A stretch of 50,561 bases of DNA from Acidobacteriota bacterium. Its GTDB lineage: Bacteria; Acidobacteriota; Vicinamibacteria; Vicinamibacterales; UBA2999. Positions 15,480 through 29,629 of this stretch are shown in pieces. The DNA lies in NCBI GenBank assembly GCA_020851325.1, contig JADZCY010000257.1, positions 1-50,561 of the forward strand, written 5' to 3'. Under the pieces are notes generated by a model that made no database searches, was not told the DNA's origin, and was given only the letters and a program-made list of their open reading frames with translations. Each line of letters starts with the position of its first letter. The first letter of the stretch is position 1. Made by a program: the position numbers and the translations under genes.

Positions 15480-15526
15480 ACAGCGAATCTGACGATCTCG
15501 TGAGCTCGTGATCTCACGATCTTTTC
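15480..15526. repeat. GATCTCGTGAG-type repeat between convergent genes; also a potential terminator hairpin
   Basis: ACAGCGAATCTGACGATCTCGTGAGCTCGTGATCT (33/35 identical to 41212-41246), then CTCACGATCTTTT. Confidence 0.75.
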
Positions 15527-16476
15527 CGTATCTCCTGCGAGATTCGGGCGAGTTCGATCATCAGCTTCTCGTAGGCGGCCTGCCATTCGGCGGGAGGCAG
15601 TTTGTCTCGCTGCTGCTTCAGCGTTTCCGCTTCGGTCTCGAGATTGCGCCGCTGCGTCAACAGCGCCGCCAGTTCGGGATTGCTGGCGGCGGAGATCGGT
15701 TCGGCGTCGAGGTTCCACAGGCGGGCGAAGGCGCCGTCCGGCCCCTCGGCGCCTTCTTCCCGGCCCACGCCGTCGCCGTTGTCGTCCAGCACCGCGCGCT
15801 CGGTAGTGAGCTGGCCTCGCTGCTCGTAGTGCTGCTTCACCGCCAGGCTCGTCGCGTCGAACACCTCGTGGATCGAGATGCGGCCGTTCTTGTCGAGGTC
15901 GGTCGACAACTCCCCCATCGCCTTGACGAAGTACTCGGGGAACACCGTCGCGTACTTCTGCGCCGCGGAATTGGTCGCCGTGATGACGACGCGGTTCTTG
16001 CCCTTGAGCGAGTCCACGAACGGAAAGCTCGCCTCGGTGGTGTTGACGAGGATGAGACGCGCCGGGATGCCGGTGAGGAGTTGATTCCATTCGGTGGCGG
16101 TGAGGTCCGGCCCGACGAGGTTGAACTTGGCGACGTCGCCGTCGAAGGTGCCGTGGCCGAACAGCACGATCATCAGCAGATCGTCCTTCGTGGCCGTCTT
16201 GCGAATCTCTCCGAGCACCTGGCGCACGTTGGCGGCGCTGCCGGTGGTGCCGCCCTGGACGGATTCATCCACCAGCAGCTTGATGTTCGCCGCGTCGAAC
16301 CCGTGACGCTCGACGAGCGCCTGCTGCAGCGACGTCCGCCACGCCTGCATCTGTTCGGCGTACTTCTCGCCACCCGAGGCGCCGGAGACAACGACCGCCC
16401 AGCGCGTTTCGGCTGCCGCCAGCCCGGGAGCGAGCAGCAGCATCGCCAGCGCGCACGTCCGCAAGAGCCTGTTCAT
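15514..16476 (-). CDS. Secreted caspase/C13-like peptidase-fold protein with EF-hand-like loops, predicted catalytically degenerate
   Basis: Signal peptide MNRLLRTCALAMLLLAPGLAAA; RWAVVVSGASGGEKYAEQ, MIVLFGHGTFDGD, RLILVNTTEASFPF; EF-hand DLDKNGRISIHE. No Cys in the mature sequence. Confidence 0.7.
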   Translation of the reverse strand: MNRLLRTCALAMLLLAPGLAAAETRWAVVVSGASGGEKYAEQMQAWRTSLQQALVERHGFDAANIKLLVDESVQGGTTGSAANVRQVLGEIRKTATKDDLLMIVLFGHGTFDGDVAKFNLVGPDLTATEWNQLLTGIPARLILVNTTEASFPFVDSLKGKNRVVITATNSAAQKYATVFPEYFVKAMGELSTDLDKNGRISIHEVFDATSLAVKQHYEQRGQLTTERAVLDDNGDGVGREEGAEGPDGAFARLWNLDAEPISAASNPELAALLTQRRNLETEAETLKQQRDKLPPAEWQAAYEKLMIELARISQEIRKRS

Positions 16477-16493: not shown

Positions 16494-18713
16494 TCATGCC
16501 AGCCCCCAGCGGCGCCGCAGCAGCCATTCGCCGCCGAGGCAGCTCATGATGGCCAGCAGCGTCCACACGTTGTGCCAGAGATCGCGGGTTTCGGTCACCG
16601 GCGTCGATGGCGCCGCGGCCCTCACGAGGTCCGCCAGTTCCCCCGCCTGCCCCGCCGGCAGATAGCGGCCCCGCGTCGTCGCCGCCAGCCGTTGCAGCAG
16701 CGCGACGTTCTGTCGCGGATCGCTCATCTCGATATCGACACCGCCGGCCAGCACGTGACGTGTGGCCACGCCCAGCGTCGTGCCGGGACGGCGAGCATCC
16801 GCGGCAAGGGTGTAGACGCCGGGGCGATCGAACGTCGCCGGCGCGACGTAGCGGCCCGTGCCGGCATCGGTCAACGCCGGCACAATCGTCCGCACTTCGC
16901 CGTCCGGCGTCGTCACGTTGACGGTGACCTCGGCGTCGGTGACGGGACCAAAGCGTTCGTCGCGCACCATCACCACCACCGGCTCGGTCGTTCCCGGCAC
17001 CGCCACCGACATCGTCGGCATCGACACCTGCCCCGGTGCCGTGGCGGCCAGCCAGCGGACGAGTTGCCGCCAGATGGTGTCGTAGGCGGTGTCGGATGAC
17101 GGCCGCATCATGCGCCAGCGCCACGACGCTTCGCCGGCAAAGACCATCGTGCGTCCCTGTCCGTATCGCTGCACGGCAATCAGCGGATGCGCATCGCCAC
17201 CGGGACTCGCGGTGACGGCCAGCACCTGCGCGCCGGGACGCGGGCCACCGACGAGCGACACGGAGGCGAGCGCCGGCAACTGACTCCACAACGCGCGGCT
17301 GCTTTCGATCGACGCGGCAAGTCGCGTCGCCGGATGCGCGGCGCCATCCGCCGTCACCGCTGGCGCGTTCACCGCCGCGCCTTCGCCGTCGAAGCCTGCT
17401 GCCCCGCGCGTGCGCCGATCGGACAGATCCACCGGCAGCACTTCGGCCAGCGGCGTGTTGCTCAGCCCTTCGCGATCGAACGAGCGCGCGCCGAGCACCA
17501 GCAGGCCGCCGCCGCGTTCGGCGACGAAGCGCGCGGTGAGTTCGAGTTGCTCGCGCGTGAACGCGTCCGCGGCGATGTTACCGAAGACAACGGCGTCGTA
17601 TTGGAACAACGCTTCGCGCGTGGACGGGTAACCGTTCGACAACGCTGCGGCGCGTCGTTCACCCGCCTGCACGAAATACGTATCGCGGCCATCGTCGTTC
17701 TGCCCCTTGCGAACGACGGCGTCGACGTCGAGGCCGGGATCCGAGGCAAGCGCGCGCTTGAGGAAGGTGTGCTCGAAACCGGGCGCGCCCTCGATGATCA
17801 GGATGCGCCGCCGCGCCGCCTGCGGCGGCACCAGCACGCTGCGCGCGTTGTTGGCGGTGACGAGTTCGCCATCGGCCGCTGGCGTGTCGATGGTGTAGAC
17901 GGTGGGCTGTTCCGCCGGAGGTGTGACGGTGAACACCTCGTGCATCGGCGCGCCATCGGCGGGCGGCGTGACGCGGCGGACCTCGACGGGACGGCCATTG
18001 GCGCTCAGGCGCAGGTCGATCGGCTGCACGCCGAAGCCGCGGCTCGTCACCGACACGCTCAGGTCGATGGCGGCTTCCGGAAGAATCGGCTCGCCGGCGG
18101 TGAGGTTCACCACTTCGCGATCGCGCGCCGGCGCGACGCTGCCGACGCCCACGGCAAACACCGGCGCGCCATCGAGTCGTCCGGCGTCGAGCGGCCGGCC
18201 CGACGTATCGCCACCATCCGAGACGACGACGATCCCTGCCAGCGATTCGGCGCGATAGCGCTGCGCGGCGTCCTCGACGGCGGTGGTGAGGTCGCTGCGA
18301 GCGGCGTCCGCCGCCCAGGCGGCGCCATCCGCCGGCTTCTGCAGCGCATCGCCAAAGCTCAGGAGCTCGACGCGCACGCCGGGCGCCAGCGTGGTGGCGA
18401 GCGACGATGCCACGTTACGTGCCGCGGCCAGGCGGGTGGCGCCGTTGTCTTCGTCGGCGACGCTCATACTGCGCGACACGTCCACCAGCACCGGCAGCAC
18501 ACGCGGTGTGGCGACGTTCGACTCGCGCACCAGCACCGGCCGCAGCAACGCGACGACGATGGCGAGCAGAGTGAAGGCGCGGAGCGCGGTGAGGGCGAGG
18601 CGCTGAGCATCCGTGAGCGGCGCGACGCGTCGATACGCCGCCCACGCCATCAGCAGGGCGAACGCGACGATCAGGGTGTAGCCCCACCACGGCAGCGCGA
18701 CGGCAAACTGCAT
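16494..18713 (-). CDS. Large membrane protein with VWA (MIDAS DVSRSMS) and glutamine amidotransferase-like region
   Basis: N-terminal TMs, VLPVLVDVSRSMSVADE, GGLLVLGARSFDREGLSNTPLAEVLPVDLSDR, GQGRTMVFAGEASWRWRM; two-TM C-terminal end. Confidence 0.8.
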   Translation of the reverse strand: MQFAVALPWWGYTLIVAFALLMAWAAYRRVAPLTDAQRLALTALRAFTLLAIVVALLRPVLVRESNVATPRVLPVLVDVSRSMSVADEDNGATRLAAARNVASSLATTLAPGVRVELLSFGDALQKPADGAAWAADAARSDLTTAVEDAAQRYRAESLAGIVVVSDGGDTSGRPLDAGRLDGAPVFAVGVGSVAPARDREVVNLTAGEPILPEAAIDLSVSVTSRGFGVQPIDLRLSANGRPVEVRRVTPPADGAPMHEVFTVTPPAEQPTVYTIDTPAADGELVTANNARSVLVPPQAARRRILIIEGAPGFEHTFLKRALASDPGLDVDAVVRKGQNDDGRDTYFVQAGERRAAALSNGYPSTREALFQYDAVVFGNIAADAFTREQLELTARFVAERGGGLLVLGARSFDREGLSNTPLAEVLPVDLSDRRTRGAAGFDGEGAAVNAPAVTADGAAHPATRLAASIESSRALWSQLPALASVSLVGGPRPGAQVLAVTASPGGDAHPLIAVQRYGQGRTMVFAGEASWRWRMMRPSSDTAYDTIWRQLVRWLAATAPGQVSMPTMSVAVPGTTEPVVVMVRDERFGPVTDAEVTVNVTTPDGEVRTIVPALTDAGTGRYVAPATFDRPGVYTLAADARRPGTTLGVATRHVLAGGVDIEMSDPRQNVALLQRLAATTRGRYLPAGQAGELADLVRAAAPSTPVTETRDLWHNVWTLLAIMSCLGGEWLLRRRWGLA

Positions 18714-18719
18714 GTGGGC

Positions 18720-21700
18720 CTATCGTGTCGGCTTTCTCGGCGCGGCGAGCGACTGGTAGTAGCGATCGACCATGTCGCGATACTCGTCGGCCACGCCCGT
18801 GTGTCCGCCGACATTGAGCCGCTCGCGGGCCTCACGTTCGCGCAGCTGTGACGACAGCCGCGACTCGGTGCGTTCGAGCGCGAGCAGCAGGTTCTTCTTC
18901 AGCGTCTCCCACTTCGAGAAGTCCTGCTTGAACGACTCGGTGCCGGGCGCGGACAGACTCGGATACCAGTTCTTCGGCGTCGTCGGCGCGTCGCGCATAT
19001 CGGAATTCTGCTGCCGGAGTTCACCGGCCAGACGCTGCGCTTCCTGAAGACGCGCGGCCGCATCACGCTGCAGTTGTCCCATGCGATCGCCGCCGCCACC
19101 GCCGCCGCCACCCGAACCCGGCTGCTGCGACGGCGAGCCCTGTTGCCCCGGCGATTGTCCCTGTGCCGGCGATGACGACTGCTGCGGCGTGCTGCCGGGC
19201 TGCGCACCCTGCTGCCCGCGCTGCCCCTGCTGACCTTGCTGGCCCTGCTCTCCAGGCTTCTGGCCGGGCCGTCCTGCCTGGGCGTCCTGGCCCGCCTGAT
19301 CCGAATCGGCCGCACGCTGCAGGTCGTCGATGGCGCGCTGCACCTCGGAGAGTCGATCGCGCAGCTCACCGGCGCGGGCCAGTTGATCCGACAGCCGCTC
19401 GGTTTCGCGATCGGCCGTGCCGGCGGCCTGTCCGAGTTCGCCGGCAACGCGATCCAGCATGCGGGCCAGTTCACGGCCCTCCGCCGACGCGCGGGCGTCG
19501 CTGCCCTGCTGGCGCAGCCCGTCTGCCGCCGCACGCATTCGTTGGCTCACGCGTTCGCGATTCAGTTGCTCGGCCGCCGCGGCCGCGGTACGCCGGGCTT
19601 CGATCTCGTCCTGATCGCCGCTGTTCCCACCCACCTGGCTCAACTCGCGCGCCTGATTGCGCAACCGGTCGGCGCGATCCGCCAGGCGATCCTGCTCCGC
19701 CGCCAGTCGTCGTCGCGCGTCGTCTCCGGTGCCGCTCGCACCGGTGCGATCCGCTTCGTTGGCGAGACGACGTTCGGCTTCGGCCAACTGGCGCGCTTCG
19801 AACTGCAGGTCGCCCATGGCGCGGCGACGTTCATCCGGCCGTGCGCGCTCCATCTGACGCGACAGCTCGCGCAGTTGCTCGAGCGCCCGGCCGCTGCGCG
19901 CGCTCGCTTCGTCCGGCGCCTCGCGCCGCAGGTCGCTGCTGGCGCCGCGCATCTGTTCCGCGATCTCGCGAAGACGACGACTGCTGCCGCTCGACGACGC
20001 CTGTTGCTGCCCGGACGCCCCGCTCGCCTGGCTGTTCTGCTGCTGCTGCTGTTGCTCCTGCTGCTGCGAGCCGCTCTGCGCCGCCGCGTTCTGCTGCTGC
20101 ATCTCGCGCGACAACTGATTGGTCTGTTCGCTCAACTGCTGCTGCTCGCGCGTCAGCCGCTCGAGCTGCCGCTTCACTTCCTCGTCTGACAAGCGATCGC
20201 GGTTCTGCGCCAGTTCGCGCTGCGCGCGCTGCAGCGCTTCCTGACGGCGGGCCAACTCGCGCAGTCGCGCCAGCGGATCGGATTCCGCTGACGTGTCCGG
20301 ACGCGTCTCGGTGTTCGTCGGCGTCTCGTAATTGGTTTCCTGCTGCTTGCGCAGCTGCTGATCGAACAGCGTGGAGAGATCCGGCATGCGCCGGTTCGAA
20401 CCGCCACCGCCACCCTGCTGGCGCGCGATCTGGCGATCCTTCACATCCGAGTCGGCTTTCAGCAGTTGCTCGAGCGCCGCCATCTCGTGCGGCAGCGCCT
20501 CGCTCGTCTTCAACCCGTCGAGTGCCGTCGACGCGCGCCCCATCGACTCCACCGCACGCGCCAGTGGATTCTCGGTCCCCGGCGTCATCGTCTGGCCAGG
20601 CCGCGGGCGACGACGTCCAGGATCGGCGAGCGCCTGCGCCACTTCGCTCGCCTGCTCGGCGGCACGCATGCGGAGTTCGCGCTGCGCTTCGGCCACGGCC
20701 TTGATGTCGGCGGCGGAGCCGGCGCGATCGGCGCGGCGCGCCCGCGCGTCCAGCTTCCATGTCGCCGCGATGATCTCCTTCTGCGCCTCGGCCAATTCCT
20801 GAAGCTCCGGACTGCCGCCCTGCATGCCGGCGGCCTGGCTCTGCGCGGCGCGGAAGGTTTCTTCGAACGGCTTCACTTCGAGGAAGAAGATGTCGCTGCG
20901 GGTCTCGGCACTCTGCCGGCCCTGACCGACGTCGCGAGTCCGCGCGTAGTAGGTGACGAAGTCGCCGGGACGCACGCCGAGATCTTCGAGATGGATCAGG
21001 TGACGTCCGGTGGCCGATGCGGCGCGTTGCGTCGGGAACGGCACCACGGTGTCGCGCTTGCCCGGCGTCTGGAACACGAGTTCGAGCGACGCCAGCGCAA
21101 AGTCGTCTTCTGCCGCGGCTTCGACGAGCACCTCCTCGATCGGCGAGACCTCCTTGTCGCCACCGGGCCGCAGCACGCGGATATCGGGCGGGCGATCGTT
21201 GATCAGACGGATGAAGTATTCCGTTTCGCCGGGATTCTCGAGGCCATCAACGTCGGTGAGCGCGATGCGATACGAGCCGTCGGCCTTCAGCGGCAGCGTC
21301 GCGCGCAGTTCGGTGTCGTCGCCCGTCAACGGAATCGACGTCTCACCGAGCGCGAGCGCACCGGTGTCCACGGCTTTGTCCGTCGTGACCACGAGTGAGA
21401 CTTCAGTGCCCGCGGGACCGTAGATGTCGCCGCCGCGTTCCTCGTGTCGATCGGGCAGGCCCATCGCCTTCGGGTAGCGGTAGGTCAGATCGATCCGTTC
21501 GACACGCGCCGGGCGAATGACGTCGATGGCGTAGTCCGCCGATCGAGCGGGGCCGACGTCCACGCGATACGGAAACGATTGATCGGCCTTCGCCAGCGTC
21601 CACTCGTAGGCGCCGTCAGCCGCCGCCGTCATCGTGACGCGCTCGGCGTCCTCGCCGTTACCGATGACGATCTCGGGGACGATGCCAATCTCCACACCAT

Positions 21701-22316
21701 GGATGCGCGCGGTAATGCGCAGTGGCTCGCCAGCCCGAACCTTCGCGGTGCCGGGCGTCACGTCGATCAGAACACGCGCGGGGAACAGATACGCGATGGC
21801 GGTCGCCGTGCCGCGACGGGCCATCGGCGCAAACGCGACAGCGGCGCCGATCAGCACGATGGAGGCCACGCCCGCGGCAATGAACGCGCGTCGCAGCGTG
21901 TCGCTGGCGACGGATGTTTCCGGGCCGGTGTCGCCAATGGCGCGGGCCGCGGCGGCGGCAATGCGCCGCGCTGCCACCGTGTCCTGCTGGCCGTGCTGCA
22001 CCGCGGTCACCACCACATCGTCCAGGCCGCCGTGCCGTTCCTCGATGAAGCGCGCCAGTTGCAGATCGGAGGGCGGCGTGCGGAACGGCCGCAGAGCGGC
22101 GAGCAGCACGAGCGCGACGAGGCCGAGCACGAGGACGGTGAGCGCGGAGGTGAGCAGGCCTTCGACGCCAAGGAGGGATGCGGTGAGGAGTCCAAGCAGG
22201 AACGTCGCCGCGCCGGCGCTGGCGCCAATCGACCACGCGCGCAGCCGTTCGCGGCGCGTCCACCGGCGCCTGACTTCGGCGAGGATTGCCCCAAGCTCGT
22301 GCGCGTGCTGGGTCAC
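18720..22316 (-). CDS. DUF4175-like membrane-anchored long coiled-coil/disordered protein
   Basis: Two N-terminal TMs, beta-rich middle region (DRPPDIRVLRPGGDKEVSPIEEVLVEAAAEDDFAL), long Q/R/E coiled coil and Q/G-rich tail. Confidence 0.72.
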   Translation of the reverse strand: MTQHAHELGAILAEVRRRWTRRERLRAWSIGASAGAATFLLGLLTASLLGVEGLLTSALTVLVLGLVALVLLAALRPFRTPPSDLQLARFIEERHGGLDDVVVTAVQHGQQDTVAARRIAAAAARAIGDTGPETSVASDTLRRAFIAAGVASIVLIGAAVAFAPMARRGTATAIAYLFPARVLIDVTPGTAKVRAGEPLRITARIHGVEIGIVPEIVIGNGEDAERVTMTAAADGAYEWTLAKADQSFPYRVDVGPARSADYAIDVIRPARVERIDLTYRYPKAMGLPDRHEERGGDIYGPAGTEVSLVVTTDKAVDTGALALGETSIPLTGDDTELRATLPLKADGSYRIALTDVDGLENPGETEYFIRLINDRPPDIRVLRPGGDKEVSPIEEVLVEAAAEDDFALASLELVFQTPGKRDTVVPFPTQRAASATGRHLIHLEDLGVRPGDFVTYYARTRDVGQGRQSAETRSDIFFLEVKPFEETFRAAQSQAAGMQGGSPELQELAEAQKEIIAATWKLDARARRADRAGSAADIKAVAEAQRELRMRAAEQASEVAQALADPGRRRPRPGQTMTPGTENPLARAVESMGRASTALDGLKTSEALPHEMAALEQLLKADSDVKDRQIARQQGGGGGSNRRMPDLSTLFDQQLRKQQETNYETPTNTETRPDTSAESDPLARLRELARRQEALQRAQRELAQNRDRLSDEEVKRQLERLTREQQQLSEQTNQLSREMQQQNAAAQSGSQQQEQQQQQQNSQASGASGQQQASSSGSSRRLREIAEQMRGASSDLRREAPDEASARSGRALEQLRELSRQMERARPDERRRAMGDLQFEARQLAEAERRLANEADRTGASGTGDDARRRLAAEQDRLADRADRLRNQARELSQVGGNSGDQDEIEARRTAAAAAEQLNRERVSQRMRAAADGLRQQGSDARASAEGRELARMLDRVAGELGQAAGTADRETERLSDQLARAGELRDRLSEVQRAIDDLQRAADSDQAGQDAQAGRPGQKPGEQGQQGQQGQRGQQGAQPGSTPQQSSSPAQGQSPGQQGSPSQQPGSGGGGGGGGDRMGQLQRDAAARLQEAQRLAGELRQQNSDMRDAPTTPKNWYPSLSAPGTESFKQDFSKWETLKKNLLLALERTESRLSSQLREREARERLNVGGHTGVADEYRDMVDRYYQSLAAPRKPTR

Positions 22317-22349: not shown

Positions 22350-24251
22350 TCATCCGGCACGCCGGCCGATCAATCCTTCGCCCGCCAGGGCGACGAACAT
22401 CGCGACAAGGCCGAGTTGCCACAGCCGCTGTTCGCTCTCGGCGCGCCGCGCCTCGTCCACGGGATCCGCCTTGGCCGCCGGCGGCGTCCGCGGCACGGAC
22501 CGCGTGAAGTCGTCGGCGGTCACGCGGCGCAGACTCGATTCCGCCGGGTCGACGTTCACGGCCACGCGTCGTGCTCCCGGCGTGCCCTCGTCCAGGGTGG
22601 CCACGCCGGGCGCAGCGGGCACGCCCGGCGGCACCGACGGCAGCGTCCACGCGCGTGGTTCACGCGTGCCCTCGGTGAGGTAGCGCGCCGTTTCGACCAC
22701 GAATGGCACGAACGCCGGGCTGAGCGGGAAGCGATTCCACTGGTTGTCGAGGTCCGACGCGAAGATCAGCAGGCGGCCGGTAGGTCGCGGCACTTCGACG
22801 AGCGCGGGGGCGCCGCCGGAGAAGCGCGCCAGCACCGTGCGGCCGGTTTCGTCGACGCGGCGATAGCGCCGGAACGACACATCGCCGAGTGCCTCGGCCG
22901 GACGCGCGAATGGCCGGAAGATCGGGTGGCGCACGTCGCCGAGCACGAGCGTCGCTGGCAGCGCGCCGGCGTTCACCGGATCGGGAACGACACCGCTGGC
23001 GCCGTCGATGGTCTCGCCCAGCGTTGCCATGTCGATGTCCGGGCCCAGCGACAGCCACACGGCGCCGCCGGCGTTCATGAACTGCCGGATGAGCGCCCGG
23101 CCCTGACGATCGAGCGTGCGCGTCGCCAGCACCACGAGCACCTGCTCGCGCTGCACCTGTTCGGGCGTCCACGCCGAAAACGCACGGCCGTCGGCGACCG
23201 TCACCGAAAAGCCCTGGCCGCGATCCGCGACGCCGAGCGCGCGATCGACGTAGAGGCCGCCGCCGCGTTCACCGGGCTCGGCGACAATCACCGTCGCCCG
23301 CGCCGCGTCGCCGGCGTCGAGCAGGACGAAGCGCTGATCGTCACCAGGCACGCCGCCCTCGTCCACGGCGCTGACACGCGCCGCGCCGCTCGCGGGAATC
23401 GCGGCGGCAAAACTCACCGGCACGGCGGCGTTGGGCGGCGCGGTCACCACCACGCGGTTCGCTTCACGGCCATCGATCTCGAGAATGACGGTGACGTCAC
23501 GCTGTTCGAGGCCGAAGTTCTGCACGGTCGCTTCGATGCGCGCCGGCTCACCAGGCGAGCCACGACGTTCCGCCTGCACCACGGCCACGTTGCGCGACAC
23601 GGCGCCGGTGGACGCCACGCGCAGTTCGATGTCCTCCGGCAAGCCCGCGCGGGCCTGCTCGGTCCATCCGGCTTCCTGGAGATCGCTGACGACCACGAGC
23701 TGTCCGCCACGACCACCGAATGTTTCCGCGGCTCGAGCGACAACGCTTCCAAAGCGCGTGCCGAGCGCACCAGCCTGCGTCACGGCGACGGCCGCGACCG
23801 CAGCGGATCGATCCGTGGATGGCGGCACCACGACGCGCGCATCGAGATCGAAGGTCGCGACGGCGACGGCGTGCGTCGAGGGCGCCTCGCGAATCGCCTG
23901 CGTCGCCAGCGCCCGCGCTTCGGCGATGGTGTCTGGGTGGCCCATGCTGAACGACGTGTCGAGCGCGACGAGCGTCAGCGGTGTGTCGGCTGCCAGCACG
24001 CGGCCACTCAGGTACGGCCGCGCGAACGATCCGGCCAGCAGCACGAGCGCGGACACACGCAGCGCCAGCAGCAGGATCTCGCGCAGGCGGCGCCGCCGCT
24101 GCTGCTCCACCGGCGACCGTTCCAGCAGGCGCACCGCCGGAAAGTCCACCACCGTTTCGGTGCGGCGGTTGAACAGGTGCAGGGCGATCGGCAGCGCGAT
24201 GGCCAGCGCGCCAAGCAGGTAGAGCGGCGACAGGAACGACAGGCCGAACAT
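22350..24251 (-). CDS. BatA-type (aerotolerance N-terminal) VWA domain protein
   Basis: MFGLSFLSPLYLLGALAIALPIALHLFNRRTETVVDFPAVRLLERSPVEQQRRRRLREILLLALR; VALDTSFSMGHPD. Confidence 0.88.
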   Translation of the reverse strand: MFGLSFLSPLYLLGALAIALPIALHLFNRRTETVVDFPAVRLLERSPVEQQRRRRLREILLLALRVSALVLLAGSFARPYLSGRVLAADTPLTLVALDTSFSMGHPDTIAEARALATQAIREAPSTHAVAVATFDLDARVVVPPSTDRSAAVAAVAVTQAGALGTRFGSVVARAAETFGGRGGQLVVVSDLQEAGWTEQARAGLPEDIELRVASTGAVSRNVAVVQAERRGSPGEPARIEATVQNFGLEQRDVTVILEIDGREANRVVVTAPPNAAVPVSFAAAIPASGAARVSAVDEGGVPGDDQRFVLLDAGDAARATVIVAEPGERGGGLYVDRALGVADRGQGFSVTVADGRAFSAWTPEQVQREQVLVVLATRTLDRQGRALIRQFMNAGGAVWLSLGPDIDMATLGETIDGASGVVPDPVNAGALPATLVLGDVRHPIFRPFARPAEALGDVSFRRYRRVDETGRTVLARFSGGAPALVEVPRPTGRLLIFASDLDNQWNRFPLSPAFVPFVVETARYLTEGTREPRAWTLPSVPPGVPAAPGVATLDEGTPGARRVAVNVDPAESSLRRVTADDFTRSVPRTPPAAKADPVDEARRAESEQRLWQLGLVAMFVALAGEGLIGRRAG

Positions 24252-25144
24252 CAGGAGGCCTTCCGCCGCGTCTGCAGATACGACAGCAGCCCCACATCGA
24301 GCGGTTGCGTCGTTTCGAGCTGCACGTAGTCGATGCCGTGCTGGCCGAGCACGGTGCGGTAGCGATCGATCAGCGCGGTCATGCGTGCCTGATAGGCGGC
24401 ACGCACGGACGAGGGCACGGCAATCACTTCCTGACCGGTTTCGCTGTCGCGGAACCGCGCCGCGCGATCGAACGGGAAGGTCAGCTCCGCCGGATCGACG
24501 ATGTGGAACACGATCACTTCCGTGCCGCGGTAGCGAAAGTGCTTCAGGCCTTCGATCACCGTATCGGGATCGTCCAGCAGATCGGAAATCAGCACCACGA
24601 GGCCACGCCGGCTGATGGCGCGGACCAGGTCGCCGAGCGGCTTGGCCATGTCGGTCCGCTCGCCCGGCTGCAGCCGTTCGAGCGCCACCATGATTGCGCG
24701 CAGATGCCCCGCCCGCGCGCTCGCCGGCATCCGCTCGCGGATGCGATCGTCGAACGTCAACAGGCCGACGGCGTCACGCTGGCGGTTCATCAAATAGGCC
24801 AGCGCCGCCGCCAGGTAAGACGCGTACTCGGACTTCGTCAGCGTGTGCGATCCGTACGCCATCGAGCGGCTGACGTCGAGCAGGATGTGGCATTCGAGGT
24901 TGGTCTCCTCCTCGAACTTCTTCACCACGTGCCGATCGGACCGCGCGTAGATCTTCCAGTCCAGCGTCGCCAAATCGTCGCCGGGGATGTATTGCCGATA
25001 CTCGGCGAACTCGACGCTGAAGCCCTTGAACGGACTCCGGTGCAGGCCGGTGATGAATCCCTCGACGATCGTACGCGCCTTGAGATCGATCGTGCCGAGC
25101 CGGGCAATCAGCGCCGGGTCGAGATAGCGGGGCTGCGGCGGCAT
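24251..25144 (-). CDS. DUF58 domain-containing protein
   Basis: GLHRSPFKGFSVEFAEYRQYIPGDDLATLDWKIYARSDRHVVKKFEEETNLECHILLDVSRSMAYGS. Confidence 0.95.
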   Translation of the reverse strand: MPPQPRYLDPALIARLGTIDLKARTIVEGFITGLHRSPFKGFSVEFAEYRQYIPGDDLATLDWKIYARSDRHVVKKFEEETNLECHILLDVSRSMAYGSHTLTKSEYASYLAAALAYLMNRQRDAVGLLTFDDRIRERMPASARAGHLRAIMVALERLQPGERTDMAKPLGDLVRAISRRGLVVLISDLLDDPDTVIEGLKHFRYRGTEVIVFHIVDPAELTFPFDRAARFRDSETGQEVIAVPSSVRAAYQARMTALIDRYRTVLGQHGIDYVQLETTQPLDVGLLSYLQTRRKAS

Positions 25145-25148
25145 GGCC

Positions 25149-26159
25149 TCACAGGCCGCTCGACGGTCGCGGCACGCCCTCGAGCAACTGCTCGATGATC
25201 CGCTCCGTCGTCACGCCCTCGGCCTCGGCGTAGAAGTTCGGGATGATGCGGTGCCGCAGGATCGGTCCGGCCAGCGCCTGGATGTCCTTCACCGACACGT
25301 GATGGCGGCCGTGCATCAGCGCGCGGGCCTTGGCGCCGAGCACGAGCGCGTGTGAGGCGCGAAGACCGGCGCCCCACTTCACCCACTTCTGCACGAACTC
25401 CAGCTTCTCGCCGCGGCCGGGCCGCGAGTTGTCGGCGAGGCGCACGGCGTAGCGCGCCACTTCCTCGGCAATCAACACCTGGCGCACGGCGTCCTGGATG
25501 CGCAGGATGTCGCTGCCGTCCAGCACCCGCTGCGGCTCGGGACGCGCGCCGCCCGTCGTATCCGTCACCACCGTCACCTCGTCGTCTTCGGAGAGGTAGG
25601 TCATGACGACGTTGAAGAGAAAGCGATCGAGCTGCGCTTCCGGCAGCGGATAGGTGCCTTCGAGTTCGATCGGATTCTGCGTCGCGAGCACGAAGAACGG
25701 CCGCTCGAGCGCGTAGGTGCGGCCGGCGGCGGTGACGTGATACTCCTGCATCGCCTCGAGCAGCGCCGCCTGCGTCTTCGGCGGCGTGCGGTTGATCTCA
25801 TCGGCGAGGATGATCTGCGCGAAGATCGGTCCCGGCACGAAGCGCAGCGTGCGGTGGCCGGCGACTTCATCGAGCACTTCGGTGCCGGTGATGTCGGCCG
25901 GCATCAGATCCGGCGTGAACTGGATGCGCTTGAACCGCAGATCGAGAATCTGCGACAGCGTCTTCACCAGCAGCGTCTTCGCCAGGCCAGGCACGCCGGT
26001 GATGAGGCAATGGCCGCCGCAGAACAGCGCCATCAGCACTTCGTCCACCACTTCGTCCTGACCGACGATTACCTTGCGCAGTTCGCCCAGGATCGTCGCG
26101 CGCCGGGTGGCCACCTGTTCGGCGACATCGGCCACGTCTTTCTCGACAATGCCATCCAT
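25149..26159 (-). CDS. MoxR family AAA+ ATPase
   Basis: VIVGQDEVVDEVLMALFCGGHCLITGVPGLAKTLLVKTLSQIL; ILADEINRTPPKTQAALLEAMQEYHVT; FVLATQNPIELEGTYPLPEAQLDRFLF. Confidence 0.97.
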   Translation of the reverse strand: MDGIVEKDVADVAEQVATRRATILGELRKVIVGQDEVVDEVLMALFCGGHCLITGVPGLAKTLLVKTLSQILDLRFKRIQFTPDLMPADITGTEVLDEVAGHRTLRFVPGPIFAQIILADEINRTPPKTQAALLEAMQEYHVTAAGRTYALERPFFVLATQNPIELEGTYPLPEAQLDRFLFNVVMTYLSEDDEVTVVTDTTGGARPEPQRVLDGSDILRIQDAVRQVLIAEEVARYAVRLADNSRPGRGEKLEFVQKWVKWGAGLRASHALVLGAKARALMHGRHHVSVKDIQALAGPILRHRIIPNFYAEAEGVTTERIIEQLLEGVPRPSSGL

Positions 26160-26173
26160 CAGCTCGCGTCCTC

Positions 26174-26980
26174 TCAATGCGTGAGCGAATACACGATCTC
26201 GTTGATCCACATCTGGTAGGCGACCGCCGTCCAGCGGATGTAGGCCGGGTATTCCTCGGCGTTGGACCACTCGACGCCGTCGCCCATGTCGGTGTTCCAG
26301 TTGATCAGCACCATCGGCCGCCCGGCGTCATCGAGGATGGCGCGGAGGTGCGGCTTGAAGCCGCCCTTCTCCCAGGTGCGGCCGCTGAAGAACGAGCCGA
26401 GACCGGGCACCTGCGGATAGGCGTCGATACGATAGAAGCTCGAGTAGATCGGATGCGGCGGTTCCAGTTCGACAATCTCGCGATCCGGAAACACGCGCTG
26501 CAACTGCCGCACGGTGAGGTCCCACTCGTAGGGGCCGTGGAAGTCGTCGAAGGTGAGCGTGCCGCCACGCAGCAGGAACTCGCGCAGGATCGGCACTTCC
26601 GTCGGCTTCAGATTGAGGTTGCTCGGCTCGACGATGTAGATCCAGGGAAACTGCCAGAGCCGCTCGTCTTCGAGTTCGAGAACGATGGGTTCGCCGACTT
26701 CAATGGCGGTGACGGCCTTGAGACGTCGCGACAGGTTCTGTTCCGCCGCCGGCGCGTCGATGGCCCAGGGATCTTCCCAGTAGCTCATGCGCGGGCCGCC
26801 GCGACCTTCGTCCGACCACGACGTGTAGCGGATGCGTGCGAAGGTCCACTGCAGGCCGGCGAGGCGATCGCCGGGCAGCGCCGGCACCTGCGCGTCGGTC
26901 ACGGTGAGGACGGCGATCACCAGCACCGCCAGCGCGCCAGCGAAACGCCGCCGTGACAGCCATCGGCGTCCGCCGGCCAT
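26174..26980 (-). CDS. DUF4159 domain-containing secreted protein
   Basis: WTFARIRYTSWSDEGRGGPRMSYWEDPWAIDAPAAEQNLSRRLKAVT; LREFLLRGGTLTFDDFHG. Confidence 0.88.
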   Translation of the reverse strand: MAGGRRWLSRRRFAGALAVLVIAVLTVTDAQVPALPGDRLAGLQWTFARIRYTSWSDEGRGGPRMSYWEDPWAIDAPAAEQNLSRRLKAVTAIEVGEPIVLELEDERLWQFPWIYIVEPSNLNLKPTEVPILREFLLRGGTLTFDDFHGPYEWDLTVRQLQRVFPDREIVELEPPHPIYSSFYRIDAYPQVPGLGSFFSGRTWEKGGFKPHLRAILDDAGRPMVLINWNTDMGDGVEWSNAEEYPAYIRWTAVAYQMWINEIVYSLTH

Positions 26981-26981
26981 G

Positions 26982-29489
26982 CTATCGGCCTCCGACGAGC
27001 TTCAGCAGCAGGTCCTGCGCTCGTGGATAGGTGGGCGCCACCTCGAGCGCGGCGAGCGCCTCGCGCCGCGCGCCATCGCGATCGCCGCTGGCAAGCAGCC
27101 CTTCCGCGAGATCCGCGTGCGCACCGGCGCGATCGACGGGCCGTGCCGCCAGTGCGACGCGGAACATCCGCACGGCTTCGGCCGGCTGCTCGTCGGCAAG
27201 CGCGAGGCGGCCGAGTGTGGTGTGCGAGGCCGCGTCGAAGGGATCCACCGCCACCGCGCGCTTGAGCGCCGTCCTGAGCAGCGCCGGTTGCTTCGTCGCA
27301 TCCAGCAGCGACGCCAGCTTGCGTGCGGAGGCGATATCGGAATGATCGAAACCCGTCAACGTATCGAGCGCGGTGATGGCCCGCGGCGTGTCGCCACGCG
27401 CCAGCGCGAGTTCGGCAATGCGCGCCTGCGGGCTGTCGGGACCAGTGGCGTGCGGCACGATCGACGCCGCCTTCTCATACATCTCGATCGCCTGCTCGGG
27501 TGACGTCTTCTCGAGCGAGCGGCCGAGCGCGACGTGCGCGGGGAAGCTGCCCGGATTCGCCGCCACCAGCGCGCGCAGCGCTTCGGACGTTTCGGCCTCC
27601 GCCAGCTTCTCGGGCGCCTTCAATGCCGTGCGCAGCGCGCCATAGCGCTTCTCGATGAACTGATCGAACGTGCCCTGCAGCACGTCGATGTCGACGCCGA
27701 GCACCTGCTTGAACGCGGTCTCGGTGTCGATGCCGGTCGCGTACGACTGCACCAGCGCCCGCAGCTTCGGCTGCCCGTACACCTCGACGATGTGCTCGAC
27801 GACCAGCGACGACTGGAAGTAGGCCATCGAGATCGTCTCGGGGTTGGTGAAGCCGCTGTTGAGATCCTTCAGCTTGAACACCTGCCCGCGATCGAGCGCG
27901 CGCGCGAAGGGCAGGTCCATCTCGCGGCCCCACTCGGGACGCGCCCGCTTCTCTTCGAACACCGAGGTGCCTTCGGTGAGCCACCGCGGCACGCGCTGCT
28001 CCGACAATTGCAGCGTGATGACGTGGGCGATCTCGTGCCACAGCGTCACGCCCCAGTTGAACTCGCCCGGCGGCCGCGCTTTCGGCGAGTCGAGAGTGAC
28101 GACGCGGCCGAAGCAGGCGCCAAGCGCGCCGATCATCCCGGGCAGCCCGAGATTGCGCACGGCGAAATCATCGTGCCGCGGGAACATCTCGATCAGGATC
28201 GGGCCCTGCGGCGTGAACTCCCACGTCTTCGACAACGAGTCGAGCGCTTCGCGCGCCAGCGCCGGCACATACTGCGACATCACACCGGTCTCGTCGGGAT
28301 GGAGGCGAATCACCATCTCGCCTTCGTTCACCGTGTCGAACTTGTCGAGCGTGTCGAGCAGGCCGAGCAGGTTGTAGGTGATGACGTCGTAGGGATCCTG
28401 GCGGAAGGCAGTCTCGAGCATGCGCCGCGCGCCGCGCTCGTCGCCGGTGCGCATCAGGTGCGTGCCAAGGTCGGCATAGGCGCGCCAGTTCTCGCGATCC
28501 ACCTGCAGGCCCTTGCGCACATGCTCAGCCGCCTCGTCGAAGCGGTAATACCCGGCCGTCACCGATCCGACGATGCGGTAGAACTCGCCGTAGGTGGGAT
28601 TGATGGCGAGCGCGGCGGCGGCTGCTGATTCGAAGTCTTCCGTCTTGCCTTCGACGTAGGCCAGCGCGCCCTCGTAGGCCATCACCTCGAGGCTCTTCGC
28701 GTTGACGCCACGCGCCTTGCCCAGACGCTCGCGTGCCTCGTCCTTGCGATCGCGGCTGATGGCGGATTCGGCCATCAGCAGGTTGGCCGGCACCGACGCC
28801 GGATCGATCTTCAACGCGCGATTGACGAACGCGAGCGCCTGACCGGGGTTGTCGTCCACCAGCGACTGCGCCATGCCGATGAGCGCGGGCACGTGCGATT
28901 CATCCGCCTTCAGCGCCGCGCCGTAGGACTTCGCCGCCTCGGCGCGCTCGTGCTTCTCGAGGAACAGATCGCCCCACGCGGCGTTGATGTCGGCATCATC
29001 CGGAGAAAGCGAGTCGGCCTCGCGGAAGTAGGCATTGGCGTCTTCGAAGCGGCCAAGGGCGCGTGCCGCTCGCGCTGCCCGCAACAGCGCCGGCGCCGTG
29101 CGCCCCTCCTGGCCCGACCCATACACCTGTTGCAGCGCGCGGCGAGCCTCTCCCCTCTTTCCCAGATACAACTGCAGCAGCCCGAGTTCGAGCGCCGCCT
29201 CGCCGGAGGGCGCCTTCACCGCCGCCGGCTGCAGCAACGATTCGGCCCGCGCGTAGTCGCCGGTGGCGCGCGCCGACAACGCCCGCAGCACCAGCAGCGA
29301 CTCGTCGGCTGGCTGCGCCTGCGCCAGGCGTTCGACGTCGGCAAACTGGCCGGCGCGAAACGCGGTGAGCGCCGCCGTGCGCGGCGATGCGGAAGACGCC
29401 GGCGTCTGCGCGCGCAGGAGCGCGAGGCCGAGACCCGCCGAAAGGGTCAGACAAACGAGGACGATTCCCCAGACGCGGCGTCGTGTCAT
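26982..29489 (-). CDS. TPR-repeat protein with peptidase-MA-like gluzincin domain
   Basis: LWHEIAHVITLQLSEQRVPRWLTEGTSVFEE (HExxH...E) flanked by TPR-like repeats; signal peptide near MTRRRVWGIVLVCLTLSAGLGLALL. Confidence 0.85.
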   Translation of the reverse strand: MTRRRVWGIVLVCLTLSAGLGLALLRAQTPASSASPRTAALTAFRAGQFADVERLAQAQPADESLLVLRALSARATGDYARAESLLQPAAVKAPSGEAALELGLLQLYLGKRGEARRALQQVYGSGQEGRTAPALLRAARAARALGRFEDANAYFREADSLSPDDADINAAWGDLFLEKHERAEAAKSYGAALKADESHVPALIGMAQSLVDDNPGQALAFVNRALKIDPASVPANLLMAESAISRDRKDEARERLGKARGVNAKSLEVMAYEGALAYVEGKTEDFESAAAAALAINPTYGEFYRIVGSVTAGYYRFDEAAEHVRKGLQVDRENWRAYADLGTHLMRTGDERGARRMLETAFRQDPYDVITYNLLGLLDTLDKFDTVNEGEMVIRLHPDETGVMSQYVPALAREALDSLSKTWEFTPQGPILIEMFPRHDDFAVRNLGLPGMIGALGACFGRVVTLDSPKARPPGEFNWGVTLWHEIAHVITLQLSEQRVPRWLTEGTSVFEEKRARPEWGREMDLPFARALDRGQVFKLKDLNSGFTNPETISMAYFQSSLVVEHIVEVYGQPKLRALVQSYATGIDTETAFKQVLGVDIDVLQGTFDQFIEKRYGALRTALKAPEKLAEAETSEALRALVAANPGSFPAHVALGRSLEKTSPEQAIEMYEKAASIVPHATGPDSPQARIAELALARGDTPRAITALDTLTGFDHSDIASARKLASLLDATKQPALLRTALKRAVAVDPFDAASHTTLGRLALADEQPAEAVRMFRVALAARPVDRAGAHADLAEGLLASGDRDGARREALAALEVAPTYPRAQDLLLKLVGGR

Positions 29490-29500
29490 GTCCTGAGCGG

Positions 29501-29506
29501 AGTATA
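29501..29506 (-). promoter_or_regulatory. Candidate -10 box (TATACT) for the 29489-to-15514 gene cluster
   Basis: Minus strand ...CGCTATACTCCGCTCAGGACATG; 11 nt from ATG. Confidence 0.45.
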
Positions 29507-29629
29507 GCGTGAGGGCGCGGGGCCGATACCGGCGCAAAAACGCGATGGAGCCCGGATGTGACACCGGACTCCATCTGAACTACCAACTTAGACGACGAGA
29601 AGAGGCGCGTGGCCGCGCCGGCACCTGAC

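Follow-up and report, generated by a model that had tools for sequence, protein, structure and literature searches.

A family of cysteine-less legumain-fold proteins linked to a MoxR/BatA-type operon in Acidobacteriota: probable secreted pseudo-peptidases

Peptidases of clan CD share the caspase/haemoglobinase fold, in which the catalytic His follows strand beta3 and the catalytic Cys follows strand beta4 (PMC4357240). Proteins that retain this fold with a changed His-Cys dyad, the pseudo-orthocaspases, are presumed inactive; in the study of p20 domains of caspase homologues that describes them, changed dyads were found mainly in Alphaproteobacteria and Cyanobacteria, with YS, YA, FS, QC, and HA the commonest, some archaeal orthocaspases have EF-hand motifs, and Acidobacteria are not mentioned (PMC6426788). 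Caspase domains also occur together with MoxR and vWA domains in the MoxR-vWA ternary and EACC1-caspase conflict systems, in a paper that does not mention DUF58 or BatA (PMC7159879). Pseudo-caspases are therefore already known, but the open-access literature that we searched held no description of the Cys-less family reported here, its fixed operon, its C-terminal hairpin, or bacterial legumain-like pseudo-enzymes, and the family with these features is apparently undescribed there.

We analysed a 50,561-nucleotide stretch of an Acidobacteriota genome (hereafter, the window), in which a gene at 15514..16476 encodes a protein of 320 amino acids plus stop, with an ATG start at 16476; this gene and all window features located below lie on the minus strand. 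In fold, Pfam score, His motif, and strand order the protein resembles legumain and peptidase family C13 (PF01650, including GPI8). In contrast to these enzymes it is bacterial, lacks the nucleophile Cys, and has an EF-hand loop, a C-terminal hairpin, and a gene linked to a MoxR/BatA operon. Unlike the pseudo-orthocaspases, its family always keeps the His, and Pfam C14 matches just 3 of 107 members, weakly; the window protein has no C14 match and so falls outside a class recognised by the C14 p20 domain. The caspase-fold protein of this locus also differs from those of the conflict systems (PMC7159879) in being Cys-less and probably exported. The gene cluster shares a core of MoxR, DUF58, and BatA-VWA genes with the BAT (Bacteroides aerotolerance) operons (MoxR, DUF58, BatA/B), to which it adds genes for a DUF4159 protein, a DUF4175-like protein, a VWA-GATase protein, a TPR-HExxH protein, and the pseudo-peptidase. 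A further bacterial comparison is with Cys-bearing C13-like proteins (L128, L129, L131, and L133), which are rare in Acidobacteriota (6 of 297 genomes). They share the fold motifs of the family, have E226 and a loop resembling an EF-hand, and in most cases the D232 loop as well, whereas their nucleophile motif is x-C-x-[SG]-G.

The gene is present in one copy in its source genome. Sequence and hydropathy place a Sec-type signal peptide at residues 1-22 (MNRLLRTCALAMLLLAPGLAAA/E; 16411..16476), with the cleavage site, MNRLLRTCALAMLLLAPGLAAA/ET, judged by eye, and the predicted protein is thus probably exported. Its sole Cys, C8, lies inside this signal peptide, as the sequence-only reading of this DNA had claimed, so that the mature chain has none; the motifs quoted in that reading (LFGHGTFDGD, RLILVNTTEASFPF, DLDKNGRISIHE, and DDNGDGVG) were all found in the protein. 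Pfam Peptidase_C13 matches residues 95-189 with 26.7 bits, above the cut-off of 22.8.

An AlphaFold2 model built from an alignment of 107 family members (pLDDT 95.3, pTM 0.91) agreed, together with comparison to the PDB, with the caspase/legumain fold that had been predicted from the letters alone. The 50 PDB matches listed for the model comprised asparaginyl endopeptidase/legumain, metacaspases, a GPI transamidase subunit, MALT1, caspases, and one structural-genomics entry, GSU0716. At the sequence level, metacaspases are the closest proteins of solved structure. A member from another clade (L053; pLDDT 93.5) gave a model with the same order of elements and with legumains as its best structural matches. 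In the window protein the catalytic-His motif G107-H108-G109 (16150..16158) follows a modelled strand at residues 100-106, corresponding to beta3, and a loop at residues 146-150 follows the strand at 140-145, corresponding to beta4. Both models end in a helical hairpin (helices 267-288 and 295-319 in the window protein; 15517..15696) that is conserved in the family; none was seen in L125/L128, the only Cys-bearing relative whose C-terminus was read. The window protein therefore has the fold, the His, and the C13 score of a clan CD cysteine peptidase, but a Glu, E148, where the Cys after beta4 is expected. With its fold retained and its dyad broken throughout the clade, it is a caspase-fold pseudo-peptidase in the broad sense.

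The former nucleophile site is the loop N145-T-T-E148-A-S150-F151 (16024..16044). Both a profile alignment and a joint MAFFT alignment, the latter read with L132 left out, place the Cys of all four Cys-bearing relatives (motifs PCFSGG, QCFSGG, QCYGGG, and QCNSGG) at residue 148; in the profile alignment, L129/L130 have one extra residue in the loop. Across 113 family representatives this column holds Ser in 79, Glu in 14, Ala in 6, Gly, Thr, and Asn in 4 each, and Pro in 2; the absence of Cys from this column in all 113 answers whether its loss is clade-wide, which had been left to a family alignment. Column 148 ranks only 89th of 301 columns in conservation, and its residue class switches repeatedly on the family tree. 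H108, in contrast, is kept in 113 of 113 representatives, and G107, G122, D124, D193, and E226 are likewise invariant, G122 and D124 belonging to the family signature N119-L-V-G122-P-D124 (16105..16122); H108, D193, E204, E226, and D232 are among the top nine conservation ranks. The pattern at column 148, as read from these alignments, fits a lost nucleophile that has drifted while the fold and the His side were retained. The earlier suggestion that a Thr occupies the nucleophile position is not supported, since the Cys of the four relatives aligns to E148. The two preceding positions, T147 and T146, vary (T/A/S and T/A/M/G/S/C, respectively). A Cys at column 149 in nine representatives was also considered as a displaced nucleophile and set aside, since it is confined to a minority and misses the Cys column by one residue. 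As a control, two ordinary C14 caspases encoded in the same genome have intact motifs (SGHG/DCCHSGG and AGHG/DCCHSG), which indicates that the dyad loss is particular to the window protein. These two proteins (L134 and L135) have long N-terminal regions that look alpha/beta-hydrolase-like by eye.

The proposed canonical EF-hand loop was borne out by the model and by the family alignment and pattern search. The 12-residue loop D193-L-D195-K-N197-G-R-I-S201-I-H-E204 (15865..15900) fits the form D-x-D/N-x-N/D/S-G-x-x-S-x-x-E and is flanked by modelled helices at 179-188/190-192 and 202-219. Among 20,000 shuffles of the window protein, only 2 gave the strict EF-hand loop pattern. A relaxed form of the pattern was found at the same place in 112 of 113 members and the strict form in 53. 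A second acidic loop, E226-R-A-V-L-D-D232-N-G-D-G-V-G238 (15763..15801), has near-invariant E226 and D232, while the DDNGDGVG stretch itself is kept less strictly than these two residues. The Cys-bearing relatives also have EF-hand-like loops (DTSQDCVVSMKE, DTNNDGRISIVE, DSNGDGRTTMEE, and DANHDGTVSFLE) and keep E226, so that neither feature is peculiar to a pseudo-enzyme, and the EF-hand-like loop is probably older than the loss of the Cys. The window protein is predicted to bind Ca2+.

The conservation of Ser and His in the family raises the question of whether some members could still act as enzymes. Outside the clade of the window protein, 62 of 72 representatives have Ser148, which aligns exactly with the Cys of the relatives, and His108 is invariant. 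One could imagine from this a Ser-for-Cys hydrolase, in which the majority-clade loop N-T-x-S148-A-S-G and His108 form a dyad that cuts peptides or esters, while the window protein (E148) would be a paralogue that lost its activity secondarily. We regard this as quite improbable: the other 10 of the 72 have Thr, Asn, or Pro at 148, and 24 of 41 representatives in the window's clade have Glu, Ala, or Gly, while other columns are invariant, and caspase homologues with altered dyads are presumed to be inactive (PMC6426788). There is similarly little chance that, in broader terms, the GHG...NLxGPD pocket with Ser148/Ser150 performs non-cysteine chemistry, such as that of a His-Ser hydrolase, in the family majority, with the window's clade secondarily inactive. 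An alternative nucleophile within the loop (S150, T147, or T146) would give activity to all members, the window protein included, and could draw on the Ser found at position 150 in 111 of 113 representatives. We judge it very unlikely, since three of the four Cys-bearing relatives have the same Ser two residues after their Cys (Gly in L131), as the Ser of C-x-S-G, which makes its conservation probably structural, and the two Thr positions vary.

The Ca2+ loop could instead be the working part of the protein, with the fold as its carrier, in a Ca2+ sensor or Ca2+-switched adaptor. Near-invariant D193 and E204 in a canonical loop between helices would suit such a role; against it stand the presence of a single EF-hand loop and the similar loops of the Cys-bearing relatives, for which a structural Ca2+ site is the simpler account, and we hold the sensor to be unlikely. 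The reading that we prefer, and consider likely, is that the window protein is a secreted clan CD pseudo-peptidase that belongs to an extracytoplasmic BatA-like machine, where it acts without catalysis as a binding or scaffold subunit and is probably stabilised by Ca2+. Against this reading, an invariant His beside a conserved Ser would also fit another chemistry, and the dominance of Ser148 outside the window's clade could hint at a Ser function kept there. The fold, the loss of the Cys, the invariant His with the EF-hand loop, and the operon linkage are computed results.

A protein search of 396 Acidobacteriota genomes found relatives in 113 of them, and one further member lies on a Gemmatirosa plasmid (Gemmatimonadota). 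As this search covered Acidobacteriota, Cys-bearing orthologues may exist in other phyla. In total, 121 ORFs were collected and reduced at 90% identity to 113 representatives, a number whose equality with that of the genomes is a coincidence. Pfam C13 matched 41 of 107 members at E<=0.01. As part of the preferred explanation, the family most likely had already lost its nucleophile Cys when it spread through Acidobacteriota and Gemmatimonadota. The Gemmatirosa copy (L127 11848-12726; plasmid record NZ_CP007129.1) is split over two frames, by a frame break or a sequencing error; a fusion of the VWA-GATase and Cys-less genes was considered there and rejected, as the two ORFs do not share a frame and the frame break is inside the Cys-less gene. 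Public MAGs titled Cyanobacteria and Acidimicrobiia (L035 and L036) carry an Acidobacteriota-type cluster and are probably mislabelled.

The gene had been described as the last of a MoxR/BatA/VWA cluster, and the gene row in the window agrees: a TPR protein with a peptidase MA domain and intact HExxH (26982..29564), a DUF4159 protein (26174..26980), a MoxR AAA+ ATPase (25149..26270; start codon uncertain, the ORF overlapping the DUF4159 gene), a DUF58 protein (24251..25144), a BatA-VWA protein (22350..24251), a DUF4175-like protein (18720..22316; 24.1 bits, under the curated cut-off of 27.3), a VWA protein with a GATase1-like domain (16494..18713), and the Cys-less protein. MoxR, DUF58, and BatA-VWA genes are adjacent, as in a BAT-type MoxR operon, and this was also seen in most long loci. 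Many other Acidobacteriota and Gemmatirosa have a rotated row, running VWA-GATase, Cys-less gene, TPR-peptidase, DUF4159, MoxR, DUF58, and BatA. The VWA-GATase gene, the usual upstream partner, is directly upstream of the Cys-less gene in 112 of the 121 loci, a set with some redundancy; six others have the TPR-peptidase gene upstream, and three have no upstream VWA gene within the stretch read. All 113 genomes with the Cys-less gene have the VWA-GATase, and 113 of 117 genomes with the VWA-GATase have the Cys-less gene, although such co-occurrence overstates the evidence because relatives that inherited the same operon do not count as independent observations. In three of the four exceptions the VWA matches are all distant (E 1e-24 to 1e-26). 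Some Vicinamibacterales have a second copy of the cluster (L137-L141) with no pseudo-peptidase gene, and each of these genomes has one elsewhere. A PADLOC scan of seven operon proteins gave no match, and membership of a defence system was rejected on this basis.

The HExxH of the TPR protein is kept in 54 of 54 aligned sequences, and this protein is likely an active metallopeptidase in the cluster. In the aligned VWA-GATase family, the GATase1-like domain has no conserved Cys; going by this alignment, it may be another case in the operon of an enzyme fold that lacks the expected nucleophile. In the mechanism that we propose, the Cys-less protein would be exported, fold around a structural Ca2+, and, having no Cys, not act as a cysteine peptidase. 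Its partner system would be the extracytoplasmic MoxR/DUF58/BatA/VWA-GATase/DUF4159/TPR-metallopeptidase system, and the former substrate groove or His-side pocket, together with the family-specific hairpin, would dock an operon partner. Candidate partners are the VWA-GATase protein, which comes first by linkage, and the TPR-HExxH peptidase, and the MoxR and VWA proteins may assemble or remodel the complex.

Pseudo-caspases are mostly known as changed-dyad branches among active enzymes, whereas here a whole family, probably exported, is without the nucleophile in every member found while retaining the catalytic His and the EF-hand loop. By genome, its occurrence nearly coincides with that of a single uncharacterised MoxR/BatA-type cluster, which is present in two phyla. 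The family would thus offer a clean test case for what the caspase/legumain fold can do without catalysis, and a way into the function of BatA-like systems.
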